From the NCBI GenBank assembly GCA_001029295.1, contig LDXJ01000062.1:310001-374000 (forward strand): a stretch of DNA of 64,000 nt. Reading direction: 5' to 3'. Position numbers and translations under genes: made by a program. Of this stretch, positions 7,721 through 43,745 are shown in pieces; within the stretch, counting starts at the first letter, position 1; each line of letters opens with the position of its first letter. The DNA is from Peptococcaceae bacterium CEB3 (lineage in GTDB: Bacteria; Bacillota; Desulfitobacteriia; Desulfitobacteriales; Desulfitobacteriaceae). The notes beneath the pieces are model-generated. The model made no database searches. It was not told the origin of the DNA and worked only from the letters and a program-made list of their open reading frames with translations.

Positions 7721-10700
7721 TCCGGCGTGGCACAAGGTTATGGTGATAGGCTCGGGGCCCATCGTGATCGGCCAGGCGGCAGAATTTGACTACGCGGGGA
7801 CCCAGGCTTGTAAAGCCCTGCACGAGGTCGGGCTGGAAGTCGTTTTGGTGAATTCGAATCCGGCTACGATCATGACGGATGTCCAGATGGCCGATAAGAT
7901 TTATTTGGAGCCTCTCCTGCCGGAAAGGTTGGAAGCCATTATGGAGAAGGAGAGGCCCGACGCCCTTCTTCCCACTTTAGGCGGGCAGACCGGCTTGAAT
8001 CTGGCCATGGATCTGGCAAGCCGGGGCATCCTGCAACACTACGGGGTGGAACTCATCGGTTGTGATGCCGGGACTATCTACAAAGCCGAGGACCGGGAAG
8101 CGTTCAAGGAGACGATGCTCAGGATCGGGGAACCGGTGGCGGACAGCGTCATCGTTACAAGTGTGGCGGAAGGAGAAGAATTCGCCGGACGCTCAGGTTA
8201 CCCTGTCATCGTGCGGCCCGCCTATACCTTGGGAGGAACCGGCGGCGGGATGGTCAAGAACAAAAGGCAATTGGCCGAGATCCTTGGCCGCGGTCTGCAA
8301 GCCAGCCCTATCGGGCAGTGCTTGATCGAGCGAAGCGTGGCAGGCTGGAAGGAAATCGAGTACGAAGTTATGCGGGATGCGGCCGACAACTGCATCACCG
8401 TCTGTAATATGGAAAATATCGATCCGGTGGGGGTGCACACGGGTGACAGTATCGTGGTAGCCCCTTCCCAAACTTTGACGGACCGGGAATACCAGATGCT
8501 GAGGGCGAGTTCGCTGAAGATCATCCGTACTTTGGGTGTGAACGGCGGCTGTAACGTGCAGTTTGCCCTCAATCCGAAGAGCCGGGAGTACGTCGTGATC
8601 GAAGTAAACCCTCGGGTGAGCCGGTCCAGTGCCCTGGCGTCCAAAGCGACGGGTTATCCAATCGCCAAGATGGCGGCTCTGCTGGCGGTTGGCTTTACTT
8701 TGCCGGAATTGACCAATCCGGTGACCGGGCATACGAGCGCCTGTTTTGAGCCGGCTTTGGACTATGTTGTGCTCAAGTTTCCGCGCTGGCCTTTTGACAA
8801 ATTCCCCGCGGCGGATAACCGCCTGGGAACCCAGATGAAGGCCACGGGAGAAGTCATGGCTTTGGAGCGCACGTTTGAGGCCTCCCTGCTCAAGGCCGTC
8901 CGTTCCTTGGAAATTGGGGCGGTGGGCCTGAGAATTCCTGATTCGGGCCGCTGGACGGAAATGGAGATCGAAGACAAGCTGGCCCAGGCGGACCACGAGC
9001 GGTTTTTCGCGGTTGCCGAGGCGTTTCGCCGGGACTGGACGGTCACGGAAGTGGAAGCCCTCACGAAGATCGATCCCTTTTTTCTGTATAAAATCAAAGG
9101 CCTCGTCGACCTGGAAAGGCGGTTGGCCGAGGGGCCCGTGGGTGGGGAGCTCTTGCGCCTGGCCAAGGGCATGGGTTTTTCCGATCTGGCCATCGCCAGG
9201 CTGACCCGGCGCAAGGAAGAGGATGTCCGGCGGCAGCGCCTGAGAGAAGGAATCGTTCCGGTTTACAAAACGGTTGACACCTGTGCGGCGGAATTTGCCG
9301 CCTCGACCCCTTACTATTATTCCAGTTACGAGGAAGAGGACGAGGTGAAGGTGCTCTCCGGGCCCAAGGTGGTGGTCCTGGGTTCGGGGCCCATCCGGAT
9401 AGGCCAGGGGATTGAATTTGACTACTGTTCGGTTCACGCTCTCTGGGCCCTGCAAGAGGCCGGGGTGGAGTCCATCATGATCAATAATAACCCCGAGACC
9501 GTCTCCACCGACTTTGACACGGGGGACAAACTGTATTTTGAACCTTTAACGACGGAAGATGTCCTTCATGTGGTGGAAAAAGAGAATGTTGACGGGGTCT
9601 TTGTCCAGTTCGGCGGCCAGACCGCGATCAATTTGGCTGGTCCTCTGAGCAAAGTCGGGGTCAGGATCCTCGGAACTTCGGTGGATTCTATCGACATGGC
9701 GGAGGATAGGGAGCGTTTTGCCCAGTTGCTGAGCCGTTTAGGTATCCCACAAAGCGAAGGTCGGGGCGCGACTTCAGTGGAACAGGCGAAAGAGATCGCG
9801 GAGGAATTAGTATTCCCGGTTTTGGTCCGCCCTTCCTATGTTATCGGGGGTCGTGCCATGCAGGTCGTCGACGATCTGGAAGAATTGGAGGAATACCTGG
9901 GCCGGGCTCTCCACCTTTCGCCTGAGCACCCCATCCTGGTCGATAAATATTTGGAGGGCCGTGAGGTGGAGGTGGACGCCGTGTCGGACGGGGAGACGAC
10001 GGTGATTCCGGGGATAATGGAGCACATTGAGCGGGCCGGGGTCCATTCGGGCGACAGTCTTGCGGTTTATCCGCCCCAGAACCTGACGCCTAACGAAATT
10101 CAGCAAATAGAAAACTATACCTGTAGAATAGCGGGGGAGATGCGGGTTCAAGGTCTGATAAATATTCAGTATGTGGTGGTGCACGGTAAGGTCTACGTCC
10201 TGGAAGTCAATCCGCGGGCCAGCCGCACGGTACCCATCCTTTCTAAAGTGACCGGGATTCCCTTAGTGAATCTGGCGGTGCGGGTGGCTTTGGGCAAAAA
10301 ATTGAGGGATTTGGGTTATAAACACGGTTTAGCCCCGGTAGTGCCTTTCGTCGTGGTCAAAGCGCCGGTTTTCTCTTTTGAAAAGTTGACCAAGGTCGAG
10401 ACTTCCTTGGGCCCGGAGATGAAATCAACCGGTGAGGTTTTGGGAATGGACCGGAATTTCGGGCACGCTTTGGCCAAAGCCTTTGCTTCGGCCCAAGTGG
10501 CGCTGCCGGAGACGGGTTCCATCTTGGTCACGGTGGCGGAGAAAGATCGCCCCGAGGCTTTGGCTCTAAGCAGAGATCTGGCCAAACTGGGCTTCAGCGT
10601 CAAGGCCACCGGTGACACCGCCAAGGCCCTGCGGCTCTGCGGGGTTGAGGCAGAGGAAGTGGCCGAGGGGAGCGAAAAGTTGAAAGAAGCCATTCGGGAA

Positions 10701-10907
10701 CGGGAGTTCTCTTTTATCTTGAGTACTCCCAGTAAAGGAAAAACCCCGGAGCACACCGGCTATCTCTTGCGCCGGTTGGCGGCGGAGCATCATGTTCCTT
10801 GCCTGACTTCGATGGATACGGCTCGGGCCGTTGTCAGGGCGCTTTTGGAAATGCGCAGTAATACGGAACCCCGGACTTTGGCGCTCCAGGAATATTTGGA
10901 AGTCTAA
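7710..10907 (+). CDS. carB: Carbamoyl-phosphate synthase large (ammonia) chain
   Basis: Makes carbamoyl phosphate from bicarbonate, ammonia and two ATP, with CarA supplying ammonia. 1065 residues, full length, with the expected internal duplication. The first ATP-grasp half opens [21 protein letters not shown] and contains GGTGGGM; the second opens [21 protein letters not shown], with IGGRAMQVV and [12 protein letters not shown]. The last ~130 residues (from about [17 protein letters not shown]) form the MGS-like allosteric domain. ATG 7710 has AAAGGAGGG upstream and lies inside the carA 3' end, implying translational coupling. Being in the arg operon suggests an arginine-repressed isozyme, but no pyrimidine gene is present to compare. 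Confidence 0.97.
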
Positions 10908-10970
10908 AGGCGCCTGCGGGCGCAGCTCGGCGTTCATCCTATTGCTCGAATCCTATTGCTCGCATTGTGA

Positions 10971-10994
10971 GCTCCCGCTTCTGCAAGCGGGAGC
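10971..10994 (+). terminator. Hairpin between convergent carB and pspC
   Basis: Perfect 10-bp stem GCTCCCGCTT / AAGCGGGAGC with loop CTGC. It is followed on the plus strand only by GGTTTCC, so it is a weak or factor-assisted terminator at best. It lies 64 bp past the carB stop and 61 bp before the pspC stop. Confidence 0.45.
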
Positions 10995-11054
10995 GGTTTC
11001 CCCGTGCCTTGACTCAGTGGGGAAGACTCGAACGAGTTCAGTGGCGTTCCGGGT

Positions 11055-11531
11055 TCAATGGCGTTCCCCCCGGATGATGACGGCAGCCCCGAGGATAACC
11101 AGGACCAAGGGCCACATCTTGTTAAAGTTGAACCAGAAGGGGAACCAACGGTCCAGGAAAAAGAGGAGACCGAGCACAATCAGGACAATGCCCGCCCAGC
11201 GGGTACCTTGGCCGGGGTTCACTTGATGGCTGAAATTGCGGGCGGCATCCTCAATGTCGGTGCGCACATCTTGAACATTGGCGCGGATATCGTCGGAAAA
11301 GCCGCCCTCGCGGGAATTCCGGCCGAGATAAGGCCGGTCGTTGGGATTCATCGGGATGATGATCCAGCAGGCAATATAGGCCACAAAGCCCGCGCCGATG
11401 GCAAATATGGTGACGATGGCGATCAAGCGAATCAAGGTAGGATCGATGTTAAAGTATTCGGCCAGCCCTCCGCATACCCCTCCCAAGATTTTATTACGTC
11501 CCGAACGGTATAGGCGTTCCGTGACTGTCAT
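11055..11531 (-). CDS. pspC: PspC-domain membrane protein
   Basis: Envelope-stress protein of the phage-shock C family. 158 residues. The N-terminal PspC domain is clear: LYRSGRNKILGGVCGGLAEY, then the hydrophobic IRLIAIVTIFAIGAGFVAYI and IIIPMNP. A polar stretch (about 65-105) leads to two more hydrophobic segments near the C-terminus (WAGIVLIVLGLLFFL and WPLVLVILGAAVII), similar to LiaF/DUF5668-type tails. The ATG follows AGGAAAGGAG. It is oriented against the arg genes and splits carB from argF. No other psp gene is seen nearby. Confidence 0.88.
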   Translation of the reverse strand: MTVTERLYRSGRNKILGGVCGGLAEYFNIDPTLIRLIAIVTIFAIGAGFVAYIACWIIIPMNPNDRPYLGRNSREGGFSDDIRANVQDVRTDIEDAARNFSHQVNPGQGTRWAGIVLIVLGLLFFLDRWFPFWFNFNKMWPLVLVILGAAVIIRGERH

Positions 11532-11653
11532 TTTGTCTGCTCCTTTCCTTGCCGCCTAAAAGAATTCAGGGGTGGTTTTTCCGGAAATGTCGGGCGGGCT
11601 TTTTTTTTCATCCCTGATACGCGAGAAGGAAGAAAAAAGTTTCATATTTGAGG

Positions 11654-11688
11654 TTGAATGTTTATACAATGTAATGTATAATAATACA
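11654..11688 (+). promoter_or_regulatory. argF promoter with two overlapping ARG boxes
   Basis: -35 TTGAAT (11654-11659), 17-bp spacer, -10 TATAAT (11677-11682). Two 14-mers fit TG-N-AT-N4-AT-N-CA without mismatch: TGAATGTTTATACA (11655-11668) and TGTATAATAATACA (11675-11688), 20 bp apart. This is the operator arrangement expected for ArgR/AhrC and it repeats that at argC. Confidence 0.82.
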
Positions 11689-11712
11689 CAGAAAAGAGAG
11701 GTGCGGATGGAT

Positions 11713-12657
11713 ATGGAAACGTTAGAGAAGGTAGGATTGCGCGGCAGGGATTTCATCTCTTTGCATGACTTTTCACAAAGCGAACTTCAGGAAATGATTA
11801 ACCTGGCTTTGGCTTTAAAGGCCGAAAAGAAAGCGGGGGTTTCCCACCCGCTCCTCCAAGGGAAAACCTTGGGGATGATTTTCACCAAGTCCTCTACCCG
11901 GACGCGGGTGTCTTTTGAGGTGGGGATGTATCAGCTGGGGGGACACGCCTTGTTCTTGAGCAGCCGGGATATTCAGCTGGGCCGGGGGGAGACGATTCCG
12001 GATACAGCCAGAGTGCTCTCGCGCATGGTCGACGGGATCATGATCCGTACCTTCAGCCACCGGGAAGTCTTGGAGCTGGCTGAATACGCCACGGTACCCG
12101 TGATCAATGCCCTGACCGACCATCTGCACCCCACCCAGGTTTTGGCCGACCTCTTGACGATTCAAGAGCACAAGGGCCGTCTCAAAGGGCTTAAGCTCGC
12201 CTATATCGGGGACGGAAACAATATGGCGCATTCCCTGATGTACGGGTGCGGAAAAATGGGGCTTCAGGTTGTAATCGCTTCCCCTCAAGGCTACCGGCCG
12301 GATGCGGATGTGACGGCCAGGGCCCAGGCGGATGCCAGGGTGAACGGGGGCTCCGTGGAAGTCGTAGAAGACCCCTGGCTTGCCGCGGCAGGCGCGGATG
12401 TGCTCTACACGGATGTTTGGGCCAGCATGGGTCAAGAAGGTGAAGCCGCAATCCGTAAAAAGGCTTTTGCGGGTTATCAGATAAATACGGAATTGCTGCG
12501 CCTGGCAGCCAAGAAGGCGATCGTCTTGCACTGCCTGCCGGCTCACCGGGAGGAAGAGATCACGGCTGAGGTGTTGGAAGGGGAGCAATCCGTCGTTTTC
12601 GACGAAGCCGAAAACAGACTACATGCCCAAAAAGCGATTTTGGCTTCGCTGCTGTAA
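11713..12657 (+). CDS. argF: Ornithine carbamoyltransferase
   Basis: Joins ornithine and carbamoyl phosphate to give citrulline. 314 residues, usual length. The carbamoyl-phosphate site is SSTRTRVSFEVG (STRTR), the domain linker carries HPTQVLADL, and the ornithine site has HCLPAHREEEIT. Two nearby ATGs compete. ATG 11713 is 9 nt from GAGAGGTG and is preferred to ATG 11707, which is only 3 nt away. The leader from the ARG-box promoter is very short. Followed by argG after 78 bp. Confidence 0.95.
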   Translation: METLEKVGLRGRDFISLHDFSQSELQEMINLALALKAEKKAGVSHPLLQGKTLGMIFTKSSTRTRVSFEVGMYQLGGHALFLSSRDIQLGRGETIPDTARVLSRMVDGIMIRTFSHREVLELAEYATVPVINALTDHLHPTQVLADLLTIQEHKGRLKGLKLAYIGDGNNMAHSLMYGCGKMGLQVVIASPQGYRPDADVTARAQADARVNGGSVEVVEDPWLAAAGADVLYTDVWASMGQEGEAAIRKKAFAGYQINTELLRLAAKKAIVLHCLPAHREEEITAEVLEGEQSVVFDEAENRLHAQKAILASLL

Positions 12658-37605: not shown

Positions 37606-37699
37606 GGATTGACAAGCCCAGTGCCGATGTGCTCAGCTGACAAAAGGCCAACTGGCTGCAAAAACCTACCTGTAATGTATACACCGGTAAAACGTGTCG
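37605..37699 (+). pseudogene. Left island scar: B12-operon promoter copy joined to a btuF fragment
   Basis: 37605-37640 repeats, with four mismatches in 36 bases, the promoter segment at 43318-43353 (TTGACAAGCCC...GTGCCGATGTGCT). From 37647 to 37699 it repeats, with two mismatches in 53 bases, the coding sequence at 44419-44471 inside the btuF-like gene (CCTGTAAT, TATACACCGGTAAAACGTG). The ~1.06 kb that lies between these in the intact locus is deleted. It overlaps the last base of cbiM. Confidence 0.85.
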
Positions 37700-37719
37700 G
37701 TCGATTTAAGGGCTAGGAA

Positions 37720-37747
37720 AGAGGACCGTCCCAGGGGACGGTCCTCT
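37720..37747 (+). terminator. Perfect 12-bp palindrome at the island's left edge
   Basis: AGAGGACCGTCC / GGACGGTCCTCT with loop CAGG, then TCTGGTTGTGG. Strong stem, poor T-run; it may be a terminator or a REP-like element. Confidence 0.5.
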
Positions 37748-37906
37748 TCTGGTTGTGGCATCGGAAATACAGGAATCCTAAAAAAGTATCTTCCATAACG
37801 GGTAACTCTGTACTATAATCTAGGTAGAACTTATATTCGATGAGGCGGTGAAATAGAAGCGAGGTCGCAGGAACAACAAGACGTGAGGAAGAGGAGGGAA
37901 TTGCAA

Positions 37907-38824
37907 ATGTTTGACTTTGTTTCACGGGAAAGTGTCAAGGAAAAGTTAGTTGAACAGGGGTATATCTCAAACAAAAGCATTGAGTATACGCTGTTCAATA
38001 CCGTCAAATTACAAACCCCTTTGCTCATTGAAGGTGCTCCGGGAGTTGGAAAAACGGAATTGGCCAAAGTGCTCTCGTCTGTTTTCGCTGCCAAACTCAT
38101 TAGGGTGCAATGTTTTGAAGGAATTGATTTTACAAAGGTGCTCTATGATTACAATTATTCCAAACAGTTACTTTATATCAACCTTTTAAAAAGCAACACA
38201 GAAAAATTAATTAGTGACAAAGAATTCAACACAGCTGTCCAGATCATCGGGGATAAGACGGATTTCTTTGGTGAGGATTTCTTGATTGAGCGCCCCATCC
38301 TGGAAGCTATTTCCCCCAAGAATCATATCCCAAAAGTGCTTTTATTTGATGAGATCGACAAGGCCGACATGGAGTTTGAAGCCTATCTGCTTGAAGTCCT
38401 ATCAGATTTTGCAATTACGATTCCTGAGTATGGAACGATTCAAGCAGCAGAAAGGCCACTGGTCATTCTAACATCAAATAGTACAAGAGAACTGAGCGAA
38501 GCATTGAAGAGACGCTGCACTTATTTATACATTGATTATCCCAGCATGGAAATAGAGGCAGAAATCATAAGGTCAAAGGTTTCCATTGAACTAGACTTTG
38601 CCCAAAGAATCGCTGAGATAGTTAATAACATAAGAGAACTTTCGCTAAAACAGAAGCCATCCATTGCGGAAGCGATAACTTGGGCCAAGTCACTTTTATT
38701 GATCATCAATAAAGACCAGTTTGACATGACTAATAAAGATGAAATCGATCTCACCCTGAATGTCTTGCTGAAAAACAAAAACGATATTATGAAGGTTCGG
38801 CAAAGTAATTACCTGGCAAGTTAG
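37907..38824 (+). CDS. MoxR-family AAA+ ATPase (CoxD-like)
   Basis: 305 residues. Walker A GAPGVGKT (43-50), Walker B VLLFDEID (Asp148-Glu149), sensor-1 VILTSNSTRELSEALKRRC with the arginine-finger region, and a C-terminal helical lid. MoxR ATPases act as chaperones or remodelers, usually with a VWA-domain partner encoded nearby, as here. ATG 37907 follows GAGGAGGG by 8 nt; an in-frame GTG 24 bp earlier is less likely. First gene of an AT-richer three-gene operon, 39 bp before the next start. Base and codon use (AAA, ATT, TTA) differ visibly from the GC-richer flanks. Confidence 0.9.
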   Translation: MFDFVSRESVKEKLVEQGYISNKSIEYTLFNTVKLQTPLLIEGAPGVGKTELAKVLSSVFAAKLIRVQCFEGIDFTKVLYDYNYSKQLLYINLLKSNTEKLISDKEFNTAVQIIGDKTDFFGEDFLIERPILEAISPKNHIPKVLLFDEIDKADMEFEAYLLEVLSDFAITIPEYGTIQAAERPLVILTSNSTRELSEALKRRCTYLYIDYPSMEIEAEIIRSKVSIELDFAQRIAEIVNNIRELSLKQKPSIAEAITWAKSLLLIINKDQFDMTNKDEIDLTLNVLLKNKNDIMKVRQSNYLAS

Positions 38825-38863
38825 TCTATGTTTGCAGAACATGCGCGAGGGGGAAGGGGTTTT

Positions 38864-40339
38864 ATGATCGCAAACGAACTTAAGTTACGCACTATTTTGT
38901 CCACTATTTTGGAGAAGGACCTGTACGACGAAAAGATTTATTCTTTCAGATTATCAGTCAAGGGAAAGCCTGTACTTTGCAATAAGGCAGCCGGAAAGTC
39001 TTACGGCATTTCGGGAATTATTAGTAGGATAAATCAAATTGTGAACATTGAGGATACCAGTGCTGAAGCCATATTAAGTGTATTGCCCAACAAGTTAAGC
39101 AAAAACATCACAGAACAACTCAAGCCTTATCTTTCAAACGTGGCAGCTTTTGAAAAAGATATTATTGTGACGATTTTCGACCAGAAACACCAAGAGATTC
39201 ATCATGGACTTGCTCTCTTCAACGATCACAATAAGGCGATGTTGGCAATACTTCGCGCCGGAATCAAGAATAACAGTCTGACCCGCCTGTTTGACAAAGA
39301 GGCTCGAAAAATTGTTAATGCCAACATAAAGAAAAGCTGCGATCATTCAGATTATGACCTTTCCGTAGACAATAAAAACATAAAAGTCAAGTGTCCGGAT
39401 TGTGAATTTCACTGTCTATTTGATGGAAACACATTGTTTAAAACCGATACTTCCATCCTCAACCAGATGGAAGCACTCGAAGAAGTAATTTTAGGCTATA
39501 CTGATTTCGGGAAAATAGAAGAATCGTTTCGCCGTTTTAACAATGCTTTTTTCCAAATTAAAAGCGAGTCGCTTTTAGAATTGTCAACTTTAAGAGGACG
39601 ATATGGCAGCTTTAGGGCGAAATCGATGGATGAACTTATTCGCAATTTTGAAAAAGACGCTTATCAATATGATTACAAAATAAAAACGCTTGAATTTGCA
39701 AATTTGCGGTTCGACATTAACGACGAAGCCATAGCCGATTCTCTTAAAAAGGGAATTAGACAATTGATTGCTTTACACGAAACACAATTGATAAGACTGA
39801 AGGCTGAAACAGATGCGTTATTAGCTAAAGAACCCATCAGAATTGTATTAATGGCGATTAAGGCGATTCCCAAGTACGGAAAGACAACCTATGCCGACTT
39901 ACTCAAGGGGGCCAAAAATAAAAAGATGGCAGAATATGAACTTGATAAATCGGAATACTACGGTTTGCTAAGTGGGTATAAGCGGCATGAAATTGAAAGC
40001 ATGATCGACTCATTAGAGGCTAACGATATGCTCAGAACCTATTATTCGCAAGGGGACAGACATAACCGATACCCGAAATTGCGGCTAACCGAACAGGCCA
40101 GCGGGGTATTCACCCAAAAAATTGCATTACCTATTCAGCCGGTTATCACGCAAGACGTACCGGATGATTTTAAAACATTACTTAATGAACTATACCGGTT
40201 TCCTAAAGAAGTCAAAGCGAAAGCCATCAAGACAGCGATAGAAAAAGGGATCATTCATGACGCTGATTTCCCTTTTATCTTCGAGTATACGTTAGAGAAG
40301 AGAGCATACTACCGGGATGTGTTAGATGAATTTTTTTAA
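38864..40339 (+). CDS. Unrecognised MoxR-associated protein with Cys cluster and RQC-like winged helix
   Basis: 491 residues. N-terminal ~150 residues show no family I recognise. A Cys cluster follows: Cys159, then KCPDCEFHC giving Cys177, Cys180 and Cys184, a likely zinc ribbon or knuckle. Helical middle (residues ~190-320). Residues ~322-415 (PIRIVLMAIKAIPKYGKTTY, ADLLKGAKNKKMAE, SEYYGLLSGYKRHEIESMID, YPKLRLTEQ) look like the RQC winged-helix domain of RecQ helicases, which binds duplex ends and junctions. No helicase motor is present. It lies between MoxR and VWA genes with good ribosome site GGGGGAAGGGG, so it is probably the adaptor or target of that pair. Confidence 0.72.
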   Translation: MIANELKLRTILSTILEKDLYDEKIYSFRLSVKGKPVLCNKAAGKSYGISGIISRINQIVNIEDTSAEAILSVLPNKLSKNITEQLKPYLSNVAAFEKDIIVTIFDQKHQEIHHGLALFNDHNKAMLAILRAGIKNNSLTRLFDKEARKIVNANIKKSCDHSDYDLSVDNKNIKVKCPDCEFHCLFDGNTLFKTDTSILNQMEALEEVILGYTDFGKIEESFRRFNNAFFQIKSESLLELSTLRGRYGSFRAKSMDELIRNFEKDAYQYDYKIKTLEFANLRFDINDEAIADSLKKGIRQLIALHETQLIRLKAETDALLAKEPIRIVLMAIKAIPKYGKTTYADLLKGAKNKKMAEYELDKSEYYGLLSGYKRHEIESMIDSLEANDMLRTYYSQGDRHNRYPKLRLTEQASGVFTQKIALPIQPVITQDVPDDFKTLLNELYRFPKEVKAKAIKTAIEKGIIHDADFPFIFEYTLEKRAYYRDVLDEFF

Positions 40340-40410
40340 GTATTTTTCTGTTAATGCCGGAAAAGTATTTACCTTTAATCAAGCTAAATACAACGATTCA
40401 AGAGGGAGCC

Positions 40411-40458
40411 ATGCAAAAGACGTTTAAAAAGATATTGGATCTTAGGAAGGCGGGCTAA
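40411..40458 (+). CDS. Possible 15-residue leader peptide ORF
   Basis: MQKTFKKILDLRKAG, preceded by GAGGGAG but only 2 nt away, ending 2 bp before the VWA start. It may couple translation to the VWA gene or be chance. Its last codons contain the VWA ribosome site (AGGAAGG). Confidence 0.25.
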   Translation: MQKTFKKILDLRKAG

Positions 40459-40460
40459 AG

Positions 40461-41954
40461 ATGGATGAATTGATGGCCGAATTCATTGAGGTTAAGTGTA
40501 AAAAGAATCAAATAACCGAGAACTTTCTATGGGTCATTTTGGACTTGGTCAATTTTTTGCGAGAACATGAATTCACCATTACAACTCTCTCTGTTGTTCA
40601 ATTCTTTGAGCTTTGCCCTGATTATGACATTTTCGACTTTGAAGAAATGGTCATTGCGATGCGGTCGCTATTTGCCAAATCGAGACTGGAATACACAAAT
40701 TTTGAAGACTATTTAGCCGAGTTTTTTCAGAATAAGGCTTCTTATAGCATAAGAGAATTATCGGATAAACGCAGTGCTTTTCTTCAAAAACAGCATGAGC
40801 AATTAAGCAGAGAGCTATCTGACTACGGTGATCATACCCTCAGTATTCAAGCAGGAGGAACCCATGAAATAGAGGAAGACGAATTAATCGAAAACATTCT
40901 TGCCCAGTCAGGAACCACTTCCGTTTTAAAGCCCTTTTTTGAGTCTTTACAAAACAGCATGATTCCAATACGTCTTATCGTTCCGAATGAAAAAACCGTT
41001 AAAGACGCTCTGAATAAAGCAATGTTCTATAATCTGACGCATAATAATGATGAGTTGTTTAATAAGCGATGTATAGAACTAGCAGCTTTTTTGGCAAAAG
41101 CCAAAACCAAAGTTAAGTCCGATATGTCCCGGAAGATAAAGCAAATCAAGGAAATCGAAAAGCTCATGAGCACTACCCATCGAAAAGAGTTCATCGAAGG
41201 CCAGAACGCGGTAAGATCCTATCAGGAACTGATCCAGCGAGACATAAAATCGTTAAATGAAACAGAATACGAACTTCTGTTGGAATATATAAAAATGAAT
41301 GCTTCTAAATTCAGACAAAAAATCTCAAGAAGCATGAAAGTATCCAAACATAGGCAATTGGATTTTAAACGAACGATTCAAAAAGGGGTCCGGACATTCG
41401 GGGATCCGATAGAATTATGTTTTAAGAAGCCTATTGTTAAAAAAACGCGCCTTGTGTGTATCATGGACGTATCCGGATCGGTCAAGAAATACGCCAAAAT
41501 CCTTTTGCAATTCATCTACGAGCTGTCCAGTGTCTTTAAGGGCGGCGTTAAGTCTTATGTGTTTGTTAACGATATTATCGAAGCAACGGAGTGCATGACG
41601 AAGTATTCACTGAGCGAGGGAATATCATTAGCAATGGCGCTCAATAGTAAAGGCTACTCTGACTACAACAATGCTTTCAAACATTTCTGCGAGGAATATA
41701 TTGGCGTTGTCGATAAAAACACCATTGTTATCATACTCGGCGATGCCAGAAACAACAAAAATGCAGCAGGTATTCAGCACTTAGCTCAAATCAAGGAAAG
41801 AGCCAAACATATAGTCTGGCTTAATCCCGAAAATATGGAAAAGTGGGATACGGGAGATAGCATTATCAAGCAATACCGAAAGCTCGTCAATTCCACGTAT
41901 AAGACAACGAGTTTTTTGGATATTGTCGATTTCCTGAACGATATGGTAGTTTAG
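40461..41954 (+). CDS. CoxE-like VWA-domain protein
   Basis: 497 residues. Helical N-terminal two thirds with charged coiled-coil stretches (residues ~200-300), then a von Willebrand A domain with MIDAS motif DVSGS (Asp336, Ser338, Ser340), GYSDYNNAF near 398-406 where the MIDAS Thr region is Ser/Asp, and LGDARNN (Asp428). VWA proteins of this type work with MoxR ATPases. The AGGAAGG site is 10 nt before ATG 40461. Followed directly by the HIT/amidotransferase scar. Confidence 0.88.
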   Translation: MDELMAEFIEVKCKKNQITENFLWVILDLVNFLREHEFTITTLSVVQFFELCPDYDIFDFEEMVIAMRSLFAKSRLEYTNFEDYLAEFFQNKASYSIRELSDKRSAFLQKQHEQLSRELSDYGDHTLSIQAGGTHEIEEDELIENILAQSGTTSVLKPFFESLQNSMIPIRLIVPNEKTVKDALNKAMFYNLTHNNDELFNKRCIELAAFLAKAKTKVKSDMSRKIKQIKEIEKLMSTTHRKEFIEGQNAVRSYQELIQRDIKSLNETEYELLLEYIKMNASKFRQKISRSMKVSKHRQLDFKRTIQKGVRTFGDPIELCFKKPIVKKTRLVCIMDVSGSVKKYAKILLQFIYELSSVFKGGVKSYVFVNDIIEATECMTKYSLSEGISLAMALNSKGYSDYNNAFKHFCEEYIGVVDKNTIVIILGDARNNKNAAGIQHLAQIKERAKHIVWLNPENMEKWDTGDSIIKQYRKLVNSTYKTTSFLDIVDFLNDMVV

Positions 41955-41984
41955 CCTTTTCGGCCTAGAGAGGAGATGTCGAGA

Positions 41985-42205
41985 TGCCTTGGGATTGTGT
42001 CTTTTGCTCTCAACCCCAAACGGAAGTCCTGGCCGAAAATAAGCTGGTTTGGGCACTTTTGGACAGATACCCATTGAACCATGGATTCTCATGAGAAACA
42101 TACTTTTCTCATAGGAATCCAGTTTCACCCAGAAATGATGTGGCACACCGGCCCGGGCATGTTTAAGCTAGCTCGCTACTTTGTCCACTACTTGACGAGG
42201 CTGTG
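41985..42205 (+). pseudogene. Permuted scar of HIT and amidotransferase genes
   Basis: 41985-42090 is about nine-tenths identical to the 5' end of the intact HIT gene at 59512 (MPxDCxFCSQPQTEVLAENK), and it breaks just after the codons for LNHG. From about 42108 to 42200 the sequence matches the 3' end of the intact amidotransferase gene (IQFHPEMMWH...MFKLARYFVHYL). In the intact locus the order is the reverse. This is the junction left when a tandem duplicate of the pair loses its middle. No working frame remains. Confidence 0.85.
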
Positions 42206-42285
42206 AGGGGTACAACGTCGCGGCGGGGTTATGGTAATTCAATGTAGCCTATAGTATAATATTGACAGGGAGGCAGGTGAGACAC

Positions 42286-43257
42286 TTGTCCCAAAAGGAT
42301 GCAGGTTCAGAACGGGTGAAATTGGACGAAATACTAAAATCCTTGTTCACAGTGTCCGGCAAAGTACTGATCAATATGTTAAACAGCTTATTCAAAGAGA
42401 ACTATGCTATAGAAGCAACCGAGGTAAGCTTTGGTAGCAATGAATTCGTTGATGATGAGTACAATATACTAAGAGGAGATTTCTTCCTTAAACTTGGTGA
42501 CGCTGATAAATCTGGTCATTATCACATAGAAATACAGACACTCAACGATGACAGTATGGTTATCAGAATGTTAGAGTACGGAATTAGTAAAGCTAAGGAA
42601 ATAGCCAAAGGCCCTGGAGACCAAGAGGAAACGGCATTCTACATCCCTAAACAATTGGTAATCTTCATAGAACAAAACCCAAGCATTAAAGATGAACTAA
42701 GACTGAGACTGATCTTCCCAGATGGACAGGAAGTAAAATACCGGGTACCGGTCATGAAATACTGGGAATATGGAAAAGAAGAGATCTTAGAACAAAGACT
42801 CTACCCACTGTTGCCCTTACAGGTATTTAAGTTACGCTATCAGATGGAGAAGATAAAACTAAGAAAGACACATACAGAACAAGAACTGTGGGAATTGATC
42901 GAGAAAGCTAAACAGGTAGTGGAAGAAATGGCTAATGAAGCAGCTAGACTGTGTAAAGATGGGGAAATAGACGGAGGAGACCTGCACACAATGCTGTTAG
43001 CGAATGAAGAACTCTTCCGATACTTAAACAGCCGATATTGTAATGATGAAAAACTAAATGAGGAGGTGCTAAGCATGACTAGAACGTTGTATGATCCGAT
43101 AGTAGCAGAAAAAGCTAAGCAAGAAGGAAAGCGAGAAGGGAAACTAGAAGCAGCCCGAAGCGCATTGTTAAAAGGGTTCTCGTTAGAAGACATTGCTGAG
43201 ATAACCGGCCTACCCCTGGAAACTTTGCAGAAGTTGAAAGCGGAACTAACAAACTAG
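42286..43257 (+). CDS. Rpn/PD-(D/E)XK-family transposase-type nuclease
   Basis: 323 residues. N-terminal nuclease core typical of the PDDEXK_2 'Rpn family recombination-promoting nuclease/putative transposase': LDEILKSLF, ILRGDFFLKLGD, YHIEIQTLNDDSMVIRMLEY (the ExQ and metal-site region), IPKQLVIFIEQNP. The C-terminal tail has the usual GKREGKLEAARSALLKGFSL and LPLETLQKLKAE. The family nicks DNA and promotes RecA-independent recombination; often a multi-copy mobile gene. Start TTG 42286 after AGGTGAG; TATAAT at 42255-42260. Placed inside the island next to a recombination scar. Confidence 0.85.
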   Translation: MSQKDAGSERVKLDEILKSLFTVSGKVLINMLNSLFKENYAIEATEVSFGSNEFVDDEYNILRGDFFLKLGDADKSGHYHIEIQTLNDDSMVIRMLEYGISKAKEIAKGPGDQEETAFYIPKQLVIFIEQNPSIKDELRLRLIFPDGQEVKYRVPVMKYWEYGKEEILEQRLYPLLPLQVFKLRYQMEKIKLRKTHTEQELWELIEKAKQVVEEMANEAARLCKDGEIDGGDLHTMLLANEELFRYLNSRYCNDEKLNEEVLSMTRTLYDPIVAEKAKQEGKREGKLEAARSALLKGFSLEDIAEITGLPLETLQKLKAELTN

Positions 43258-43321
43258 GGCAGTGCCAGGATTTCCCCCCCCACACGACGGGAACCATTCT
43301 GCAAAGCTTCCTGTTTAGGGA

Positions 43322-43351
43322 TTGACAAGCCCGGTGCCGATGTGCTAGGCT
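43322..43351 (+). promoter_or_regulatory. Promoter of the cobalamin-riboswitch operon
   Basis: TTGACA (43322-43327), 18-bp spacer, TAGGCT (43346-43351). A degraded copy lies in the left scar at 37605-37640. Confidence 0.55.
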
Positions 43352-43382
43352 GAAAGTGTGAAAACTCAATATATGCGGCGCG

Positions 43383-43545
43383 AGTATACTTTCTTTAGAG
43401 AAAGTATTGAAAAGGGAAGTCAGTACGAATCTGACGCGGTCCCGCCACTGTGATAGTGAGCGGCCTTACATAGTGTCACTGGGTAAAACCGGGAAGACGT
43501 AAGGCGGCGATGAACTTAAGCCAGGAGACCTGCTCGCTCCGGAAC
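43383..43545 (+). promoter_or_regulatory. Cobalamin (AdoCbl) riboswitch
   Basis: The conserved core is readable: AAAAGGGAAGTC, GCGGTCCCGCCACTGTGA, GTCACTGGG, CCGGGAAGACG, GGCGATGAACTTAAG and the B12 box AAGCCAGGAGACCTGC (43518-43533). Expected to shut off the downstream importer when cobalamin is bound, probably through the terminator at 43623-43657. TGCTCGC (43531) can pair with GCGAGCA (43614), a candidate expression-platform helix. Confidence 0.95.
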
Positions 43546-43622
43546 AGCACAGATACCTACGGAAGATAGGGGAGGTGTTGCTTTTGCCGGGTAACCATCG
43601 ATCCGGCTAGGCGAGCAAGGCG

Positions 43623-43657: not shown

Positions 43658-43687
43658 CTGTGTCGAGGCGGATAACTCTACGTACAA

Positions 43688-43745
43688 ACGAATCGCGTGC
43701 ATATGCACGAAACGAATCGCGTGCGTATGCACGAAACGAATCATC
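43688..43745 (+). repeat. 24-bp tandem palindromic repeat in the B12 leader
   Basis: Units at 43688 and 43712 and a truncated one at 43736. Each holds ACGAATCGCGTGC then ATATGCACGAA or GTATGCACGAA, so CGTGCATATGCACG is a perfect palindrome in the first unit. It lies after the riboswitch terminator and before the first ribosome site. Confidence 0.75.

Follow-up and report, generated by a model that had tools for sequence, protein, structure and literature searches.

A recurring MoxR, RQC and VWA gene trio as a candidate fifth class of MoxR-vWA ternary system

MoxR-vWA pairs have been described as chaperone/co-chaperone pairs, and CoxD-CoxE as activators of metal-cluster insertion (PMC7159879, PMC4240915); the characterised CoxD/CoxE members activate metalloenzymes (PMC4240915). 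The published ternary systems are CoxD-CoxE pairs that have gained a third component (PMC7159879, PMC4240915), and in the four that have been described this component is VMAP, iSTAND, FtsH or a beta-propeller protein (Kaur et al. 2020, PMC7159879). MoxR-VWA machines are widespread; little is known about how they locate their targets.

In the window, that is, the whole stretch of 64,000 nucleotides that was analysed, a MoxR-VWA pair is encoded with a third protein by three genes on the forward strand (37907-41954), each preceded by a ribosome site. The MoxR AAA+ ATPase (37907-38824, 305 residues) belongs to the RQC-linked clade described below and has a 13-residue insert and a Y[DE]YNY motif; it matches NCBIfam MadB_ATPase (E = 4.3e-74) and also Pfam AAA_5. 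The RQC protein (38864-40339, 491 residues) consists of an N-terminal region, a Cys cluster (residues 159-184), a helical region and a winged helix (residues 324-425); an alternative upstream ATG at 38828 is without a good ribosome site. The third gene (40461-41954) encodes a CoxE-type VWA protein of 497 residues that is assigned by its match to PF05762 (E = 2.5e-31), its DxSxS (MIDAS) motif, its alignment and the VWA tree. The MoxR and VWA proteins are far below the NCBIfam equivalog cut-offs (249 vs 475 bits and 88.6 vs 600, respectively). The sequence-only reading had recognised three same-strand genes with ribosome sites and, in the outer two, a MoxR ATPase and a VWA protein; the MadB_ATPase, AAA_5 and VWA_CoxE matches and the DxSxS motif confirm this, and the assignment of the trio to three families is directly supported.

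The same reading had placed an RQC-type winged helix, with no helicase motor, in the middle protein, and both parts are borne out. Pfam identifies the RQC domain (PF09382) at the winged-helix residues of the 491-residue form (E = 4.8e-14; 52.6 bits vs a gathering score of 23), and the Pfam scan finds no helicase family, that is, no SF2 motor, in this protein. The proposed structural check also returned an RQC fold: an AlphaFold model of residues 296-445, made with an alignment of four relatives, has a core with pLDDT ~90. Among PDB structures, Foldseek ranks highest the RecQ catalytic core (E = 4.9e-4, rmsd 2.5 Å over 94 columns) and the BLM RQC domain, with the WRN RQC lower; no more than two matches reach an E of 0.001, and MarR-type winged helices score too. 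Given the Pfam match and the predicted fold, the RQC call is sound at the level of sequence and fold prediction. RQC domains can also mediate protein-protein contacts. When the whole 491-residue protein was modelled without relatives, pLDDT was 33; the N-terminal two thirds, which are unclassified, could hold the main activity.

The C...CxxCxxxC cluster that had been reported for this protein is present (C159, C177, C180, C184), and relatives have equivalents of three of these Cys; the fourth Cys is unconserved and the cluster is absent from the Planctomycete proteins, so the claim stands for the window protein and does not extend to those. We considered the cluster as a RecQ zinc module, the spacing of which it resembles, and rejected this because ~140 residues separate it from the winged helix downstream and its fourth Cys is unconserved. 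The L142 protein (9210-10928) has C-x20-CPC at residues 157-180 where the window protein has C-x17-CPxC; the similar patterns suggest a metal site common to the Bacillota-type RQC proteins. These two proteins may also have homologous N-terminal regions; profile comparison gave no support, with hhalign finding no homology beyond the RQC domain among the window/Clostridia, Planctomycete and G391 proteins.

Protein-seed searches with the RQC protein gave no matches in 84,980 species genomes or in viral contigs, plasmids or phages, direct searches otherwise returned RecQ-type RQC domains only, and the N-terminal 327 residues matched only themselves among 83 genomes of the class. Genome contigs were therefore scanned at the DNA level for the MoxR motif Y[DE]YNYxKQ (YEWNYxKQ in relatives). 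Among the matches listed were all three genes of the trio in a Clostridia MAG (L257) and MoxR and RQC genes in two Planctomycetes; two Planctomycete loci (G618 and G619) were located via the RQC protein itself. The Clostridia trio (L257/L300) has the gene order of the window, and the L257 proteins match those of the window with E-values of 1.8e-127 (MoxR), 2e-31 (RQC protein, N-terminal part included) and 1.2e-114 (VWA); 148 relatives of this MAG yielded no additional trio. Of four loci in Planctomycetes, three (L296, L297 and L298) contain the whole trio; the other, L299, has the MoxR gene, a Rha/DUF559 ORF (10953-12062) and the RQC gene, and no VWA gene was found in that assembly. G468 has MoxR and RQC genes and no VWA match in any part of its assembly, so the VWA protein is perhaps dispensable or the MAG is incomplete. 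In G391, which belongs to the phylum of the window, the order is MoxR-VWA-RQC and the RQC protein has 572 residues; its length is 434-572 residues in six of the seven loci. The intergenic gaps are short, or the genes overlap, in most trio loci, which suggests operons. PF09382 is matched in L257 (E = 1.5e-13, 51.0 bits), G391 (4e-11, 43.2 bits) and L298 (5.4e-6, 26.6 bits); its threshold is not attained in L296, L297 and L299, where the RQC domain is degenerate and is counted as such by similarity to L298.

As controls we used ~92 other MoxR-VWA pairs; for 88 of 102 MoxR genes the flanks extended 3 kb or more in each direction. Whether the profile was made with the trio proteins or with RecQ only, no RQC gene was found near any of the ~92 pairs, vs seven of the seven judgeable clade loci (Fisher p = 7e-11, with related rows treated as independent). 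The RecQ-only profile, which is not circular, detects the RQC domain strongly in the window, L257, L142 and L298 and weakly in L297, and has no match in L296 or L299. Several members of the clade were located via the YNY motif, so the motif was partly selected for; the RQC neighbour was not so selected, except at G618 and G619. The RQC-linked MoxRs together with L186, the contig of which stops before an RQC neighbour can be judged, form one clade (SH-aLRT 99), which has support of 100/98 in a careful tree from which the insert columns had been removed; the VWA proteins of the RQC loci also form one clade (99/94). With a single MoxR clade and a single VWA clade, the trio appears to be co-inherited: the position of the RQC gene varies, yet among the loci seen it is inherited together with the MoxR/VWA clade without exception. 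The trio is a recurring system, and a chance neighbourhood is rejected.

The sequence-only reading had also placed the genes in an AT-rich island with a mobile character, next to a recombination-type nuclease, and this description holds. The trio lies within an insert of ~5.7 kb (37607-43318) that has 40.3% G+C, vs 52-53% in the surroundings, and is absent from the sister species G399 (blastn to L127). In G399, a CbiM gene is followed by a 365-bp unrelated stretch and then by sequence matching the window from 43319 onward, that is, the cobalamin riboswitch region and then binding-protein/ABC transporter genes. Direct repeats of 35 bp flank the insert (37606-37640 and 43319-43353; 91% identical, spacing 5713 bp), and one copy is found at the corresponding G399 site. 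The right copy is at the promoter-like start of the leader of the cobalamin riboswitch (43365-43551; RF00174, 118 bits); because the repeat overlaps this leader, the left copy is a second promoter-like copy. No integrase gene was seen in the insert. Additional features were observed in this region: a perfect 14-bp inverted repeat between the left repeat and the MoxR gene (37719-37748; AAGAGGACCGTCCC / GGGACGGTCCTCTT), a short ORF between the VWA and nuclease genes (MPWDCVFCSQPQTEV...NHGFS; 41984-42094) that by eye resembles the truncated start of a HIT-family protein, and a tandem 24-bp palindromic repeat shortly after the riboswitch (AAACGAATCGCGTGCATATGCACG; 43686-43742). Contig C1 of G399 (L126, L127 and L128) has three CbiM-like genes that are 93-94% identical, two of them followed by the same riboswitch region.

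The nuclease ORF (42262-43257, forward strand) is like the Rpn family of recombination-promoting nucleases/transposases (TIGR01784, E = 1.2e-13; 51.5 bits, just below the 52.1 cut-off). It was considered as a fourth component and rejected because the family is a common repeat family, with 15 matches in the window genome and eight in the sister; no Rpn genes were seen on reading the remaining trio neighbourhoods, and the ORF is probably not part of the system. The G391 trio is on a mobile element, with a Gp3-like recombination directionality factor, a dNMP kinase, a sliding clamp, RNase H and an RRXRR nuclease nearby. The Clostridia locus is among the genes for topoisomerase I, RecG and RadC, the Planctomycete loci have mixed neighbours, and none of these has an obvious surrounding element. 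Thus, mobility is supported for two of the seven loci, in the lineages of the window and G391, and not for all.

Our preferred explanation, to which we give about an even chance, is that the co-inherited MoxR-RQC-VWA system works as a remodelling machine of the CoxD/CoxE type that the RQC protein redirects to DNA. The MoxR ring would be paired with the VWA (MIDAS) adaptor for ATP-driven remodelling, and the RQC protein would be their dedicated third component, with the three presumably forming a complex. The winged helix would bind DNA, probably at ends, forks or junctions, as in RecQ, so the RQC protein would recruit the remodelling activity to DNA; there, ATP hydrolysis by MoxR, coupled through the VWA protein, would load, unload or restructure the RQC protein or others. 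By the logic of the published ternary systems, in which a CoxD-CoxE pair gains a component, the RQC protein would be the targeting part, and its fold points to DNA; by analogy with RecQ, it may be a reader of DNA ends or junctions. More tentatively, and at somewhat less than an even chance, we propose a fifth MoxR-vWA ternary class in which the RecQ-like RQC protein guides the AAA+ remodelling machine to DNA that is aberrant or invading. If the motorless RQC partner is dedicated, this would be, within the literature searched, the first MoxR-VWA machine with a named DNA-binding fold as core third component, and it would connect AAA+ remodelling with RecQ-type DNA recognition. Because the trio is small, crosses phyla and, in two or more lineages, travels on mobile DNA, its function is directly testable.

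The setting that supports mobility can also be read as that of a mobile anti-phage or anti-plasmid conflict system whose RQC protein detects DNA intermediates of the invader and triggers a MoxR-VWA switch (cf. VMAP and iSTAND). The patchy spread across phyla, the absence of the 5.7-kb insert in the sister species, the element genes beside the G391 trio (including the excision-factor-like protein) and the arrangement of a core pair with a third component, as in PMC7159879, are consistent with this; however, the VWA proteins terminate with the VWA domain and no effector domain is found, the PADLOC matches amount to weak similarity to RQC or ATPase proteins, the Clostridia trio is surrounded by housekeeping genes, and no known defence gene is among the trio neighbours tested. 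We consider this explanation rather unlikely, and the defence role that the sequence-only reading had inferred, in part from the nearby nuclease, is not supported. The same mobile loci would fit a maintenance or DNA-processing module of the elements themselves (replication restart, transfer or excision) as opposed to host immunity, given that the G391 trio is among element replication and excision genes and the window trio is carried on an insert; this is highly improbable, as no recombinase or replication gene is recognised within the 5.7-kb insert and the Clostridia and Planctomycete loci are not obviously in elements.

A further explanation retains the activity of the characterised relatives: the MoxR and VWA proteins, which are of the CoxD/CoxE (MadB/MadC) kind whose characterised members activate metalloenzymes (PMC4240915), would activate an unlinked enzyme, and the RQC protein, whose fold also resembles MarR-type winged helices, would regulate transcription of the local operon. 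None of the seven trio loci is in a CO-dehydrogenase operon, the metabolic setting that had been named as telling against a new system, or in another recognised client metalloenzyme-maturation operon; one Planctomycete locus, L299, has a NuoF-like iron-sulfur gene ahead of it. The size of the RQC protein, and its strict co-inheritance with the MoxR/VWA clade despite its varying gene position, also argue against a local regulator, and we regard this explanation as quite improbable. The redirection of a remodelling machine to DNA remains our preferred explanation.

Compared with known systems, the trio resembles CoxD-CoxE and MadB/MadC in having a MoxR-type ATPase adjoining a CoxE-type VWA protein; however, it is a separate clade with the 13-residue MoxR insert, has an RQC gene at every judged locus and is without a metalloenzyme operon. 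With RecQ-family helicases the RQC protein shares the winged helix (by sequence and predicted fold); it differs in that no motor is found, the Cys cluster is upstream and the partners are different. The NCBIfam RQC-minor-1 and RQC-minor-2 DNA-binding proteins also have an RQC domain and no helicase motor, but the window protein is under their cut-offs (38.6 vs 115 and 19.2 vs 300 bits) and the RQC-minor-type loci inspected, unlike the trio, have no MoxR/VWA genes. One such protein, at L106/L129 (G170:C20), is a full-length RQC-minor-2 (483 bits); the stretch retrieved for it contains neither MoxR nor VWA genes. PADLOC 2.0 has no system-protein match for the trio, and the MoxR-RQC combination was found in none of the PADLOC, NCBIfam and Pfam libraries or the open-licence papers searched; the words 'RQC' and 'RecQ' are absent from the text of PMC7159879, and no relevant paper turned up for MadB/MadC. 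This agrees with the earlier suggestion that an RQC protein is a novel third component. In plan the trio is like the MoxR-vWA ternary conflict systems (PMC7159879), which also have a MoxR-VWA core and one conserved third protein; whereas their third proteins are VMAP, iSTAND, FtsH or beta-propeller proteins and variable effectors are fused, the third protein of the trio is of the RQC type, with no other domain recognised by Pfam, and its VWA proteins end at the VWA domain, with no effector domain on either protein (Pfam, VWA alignment). With no earlier description found among open-licence papers and curated models, the trio appears to be new, and we class it with the MoxR-vWA ternary systems.
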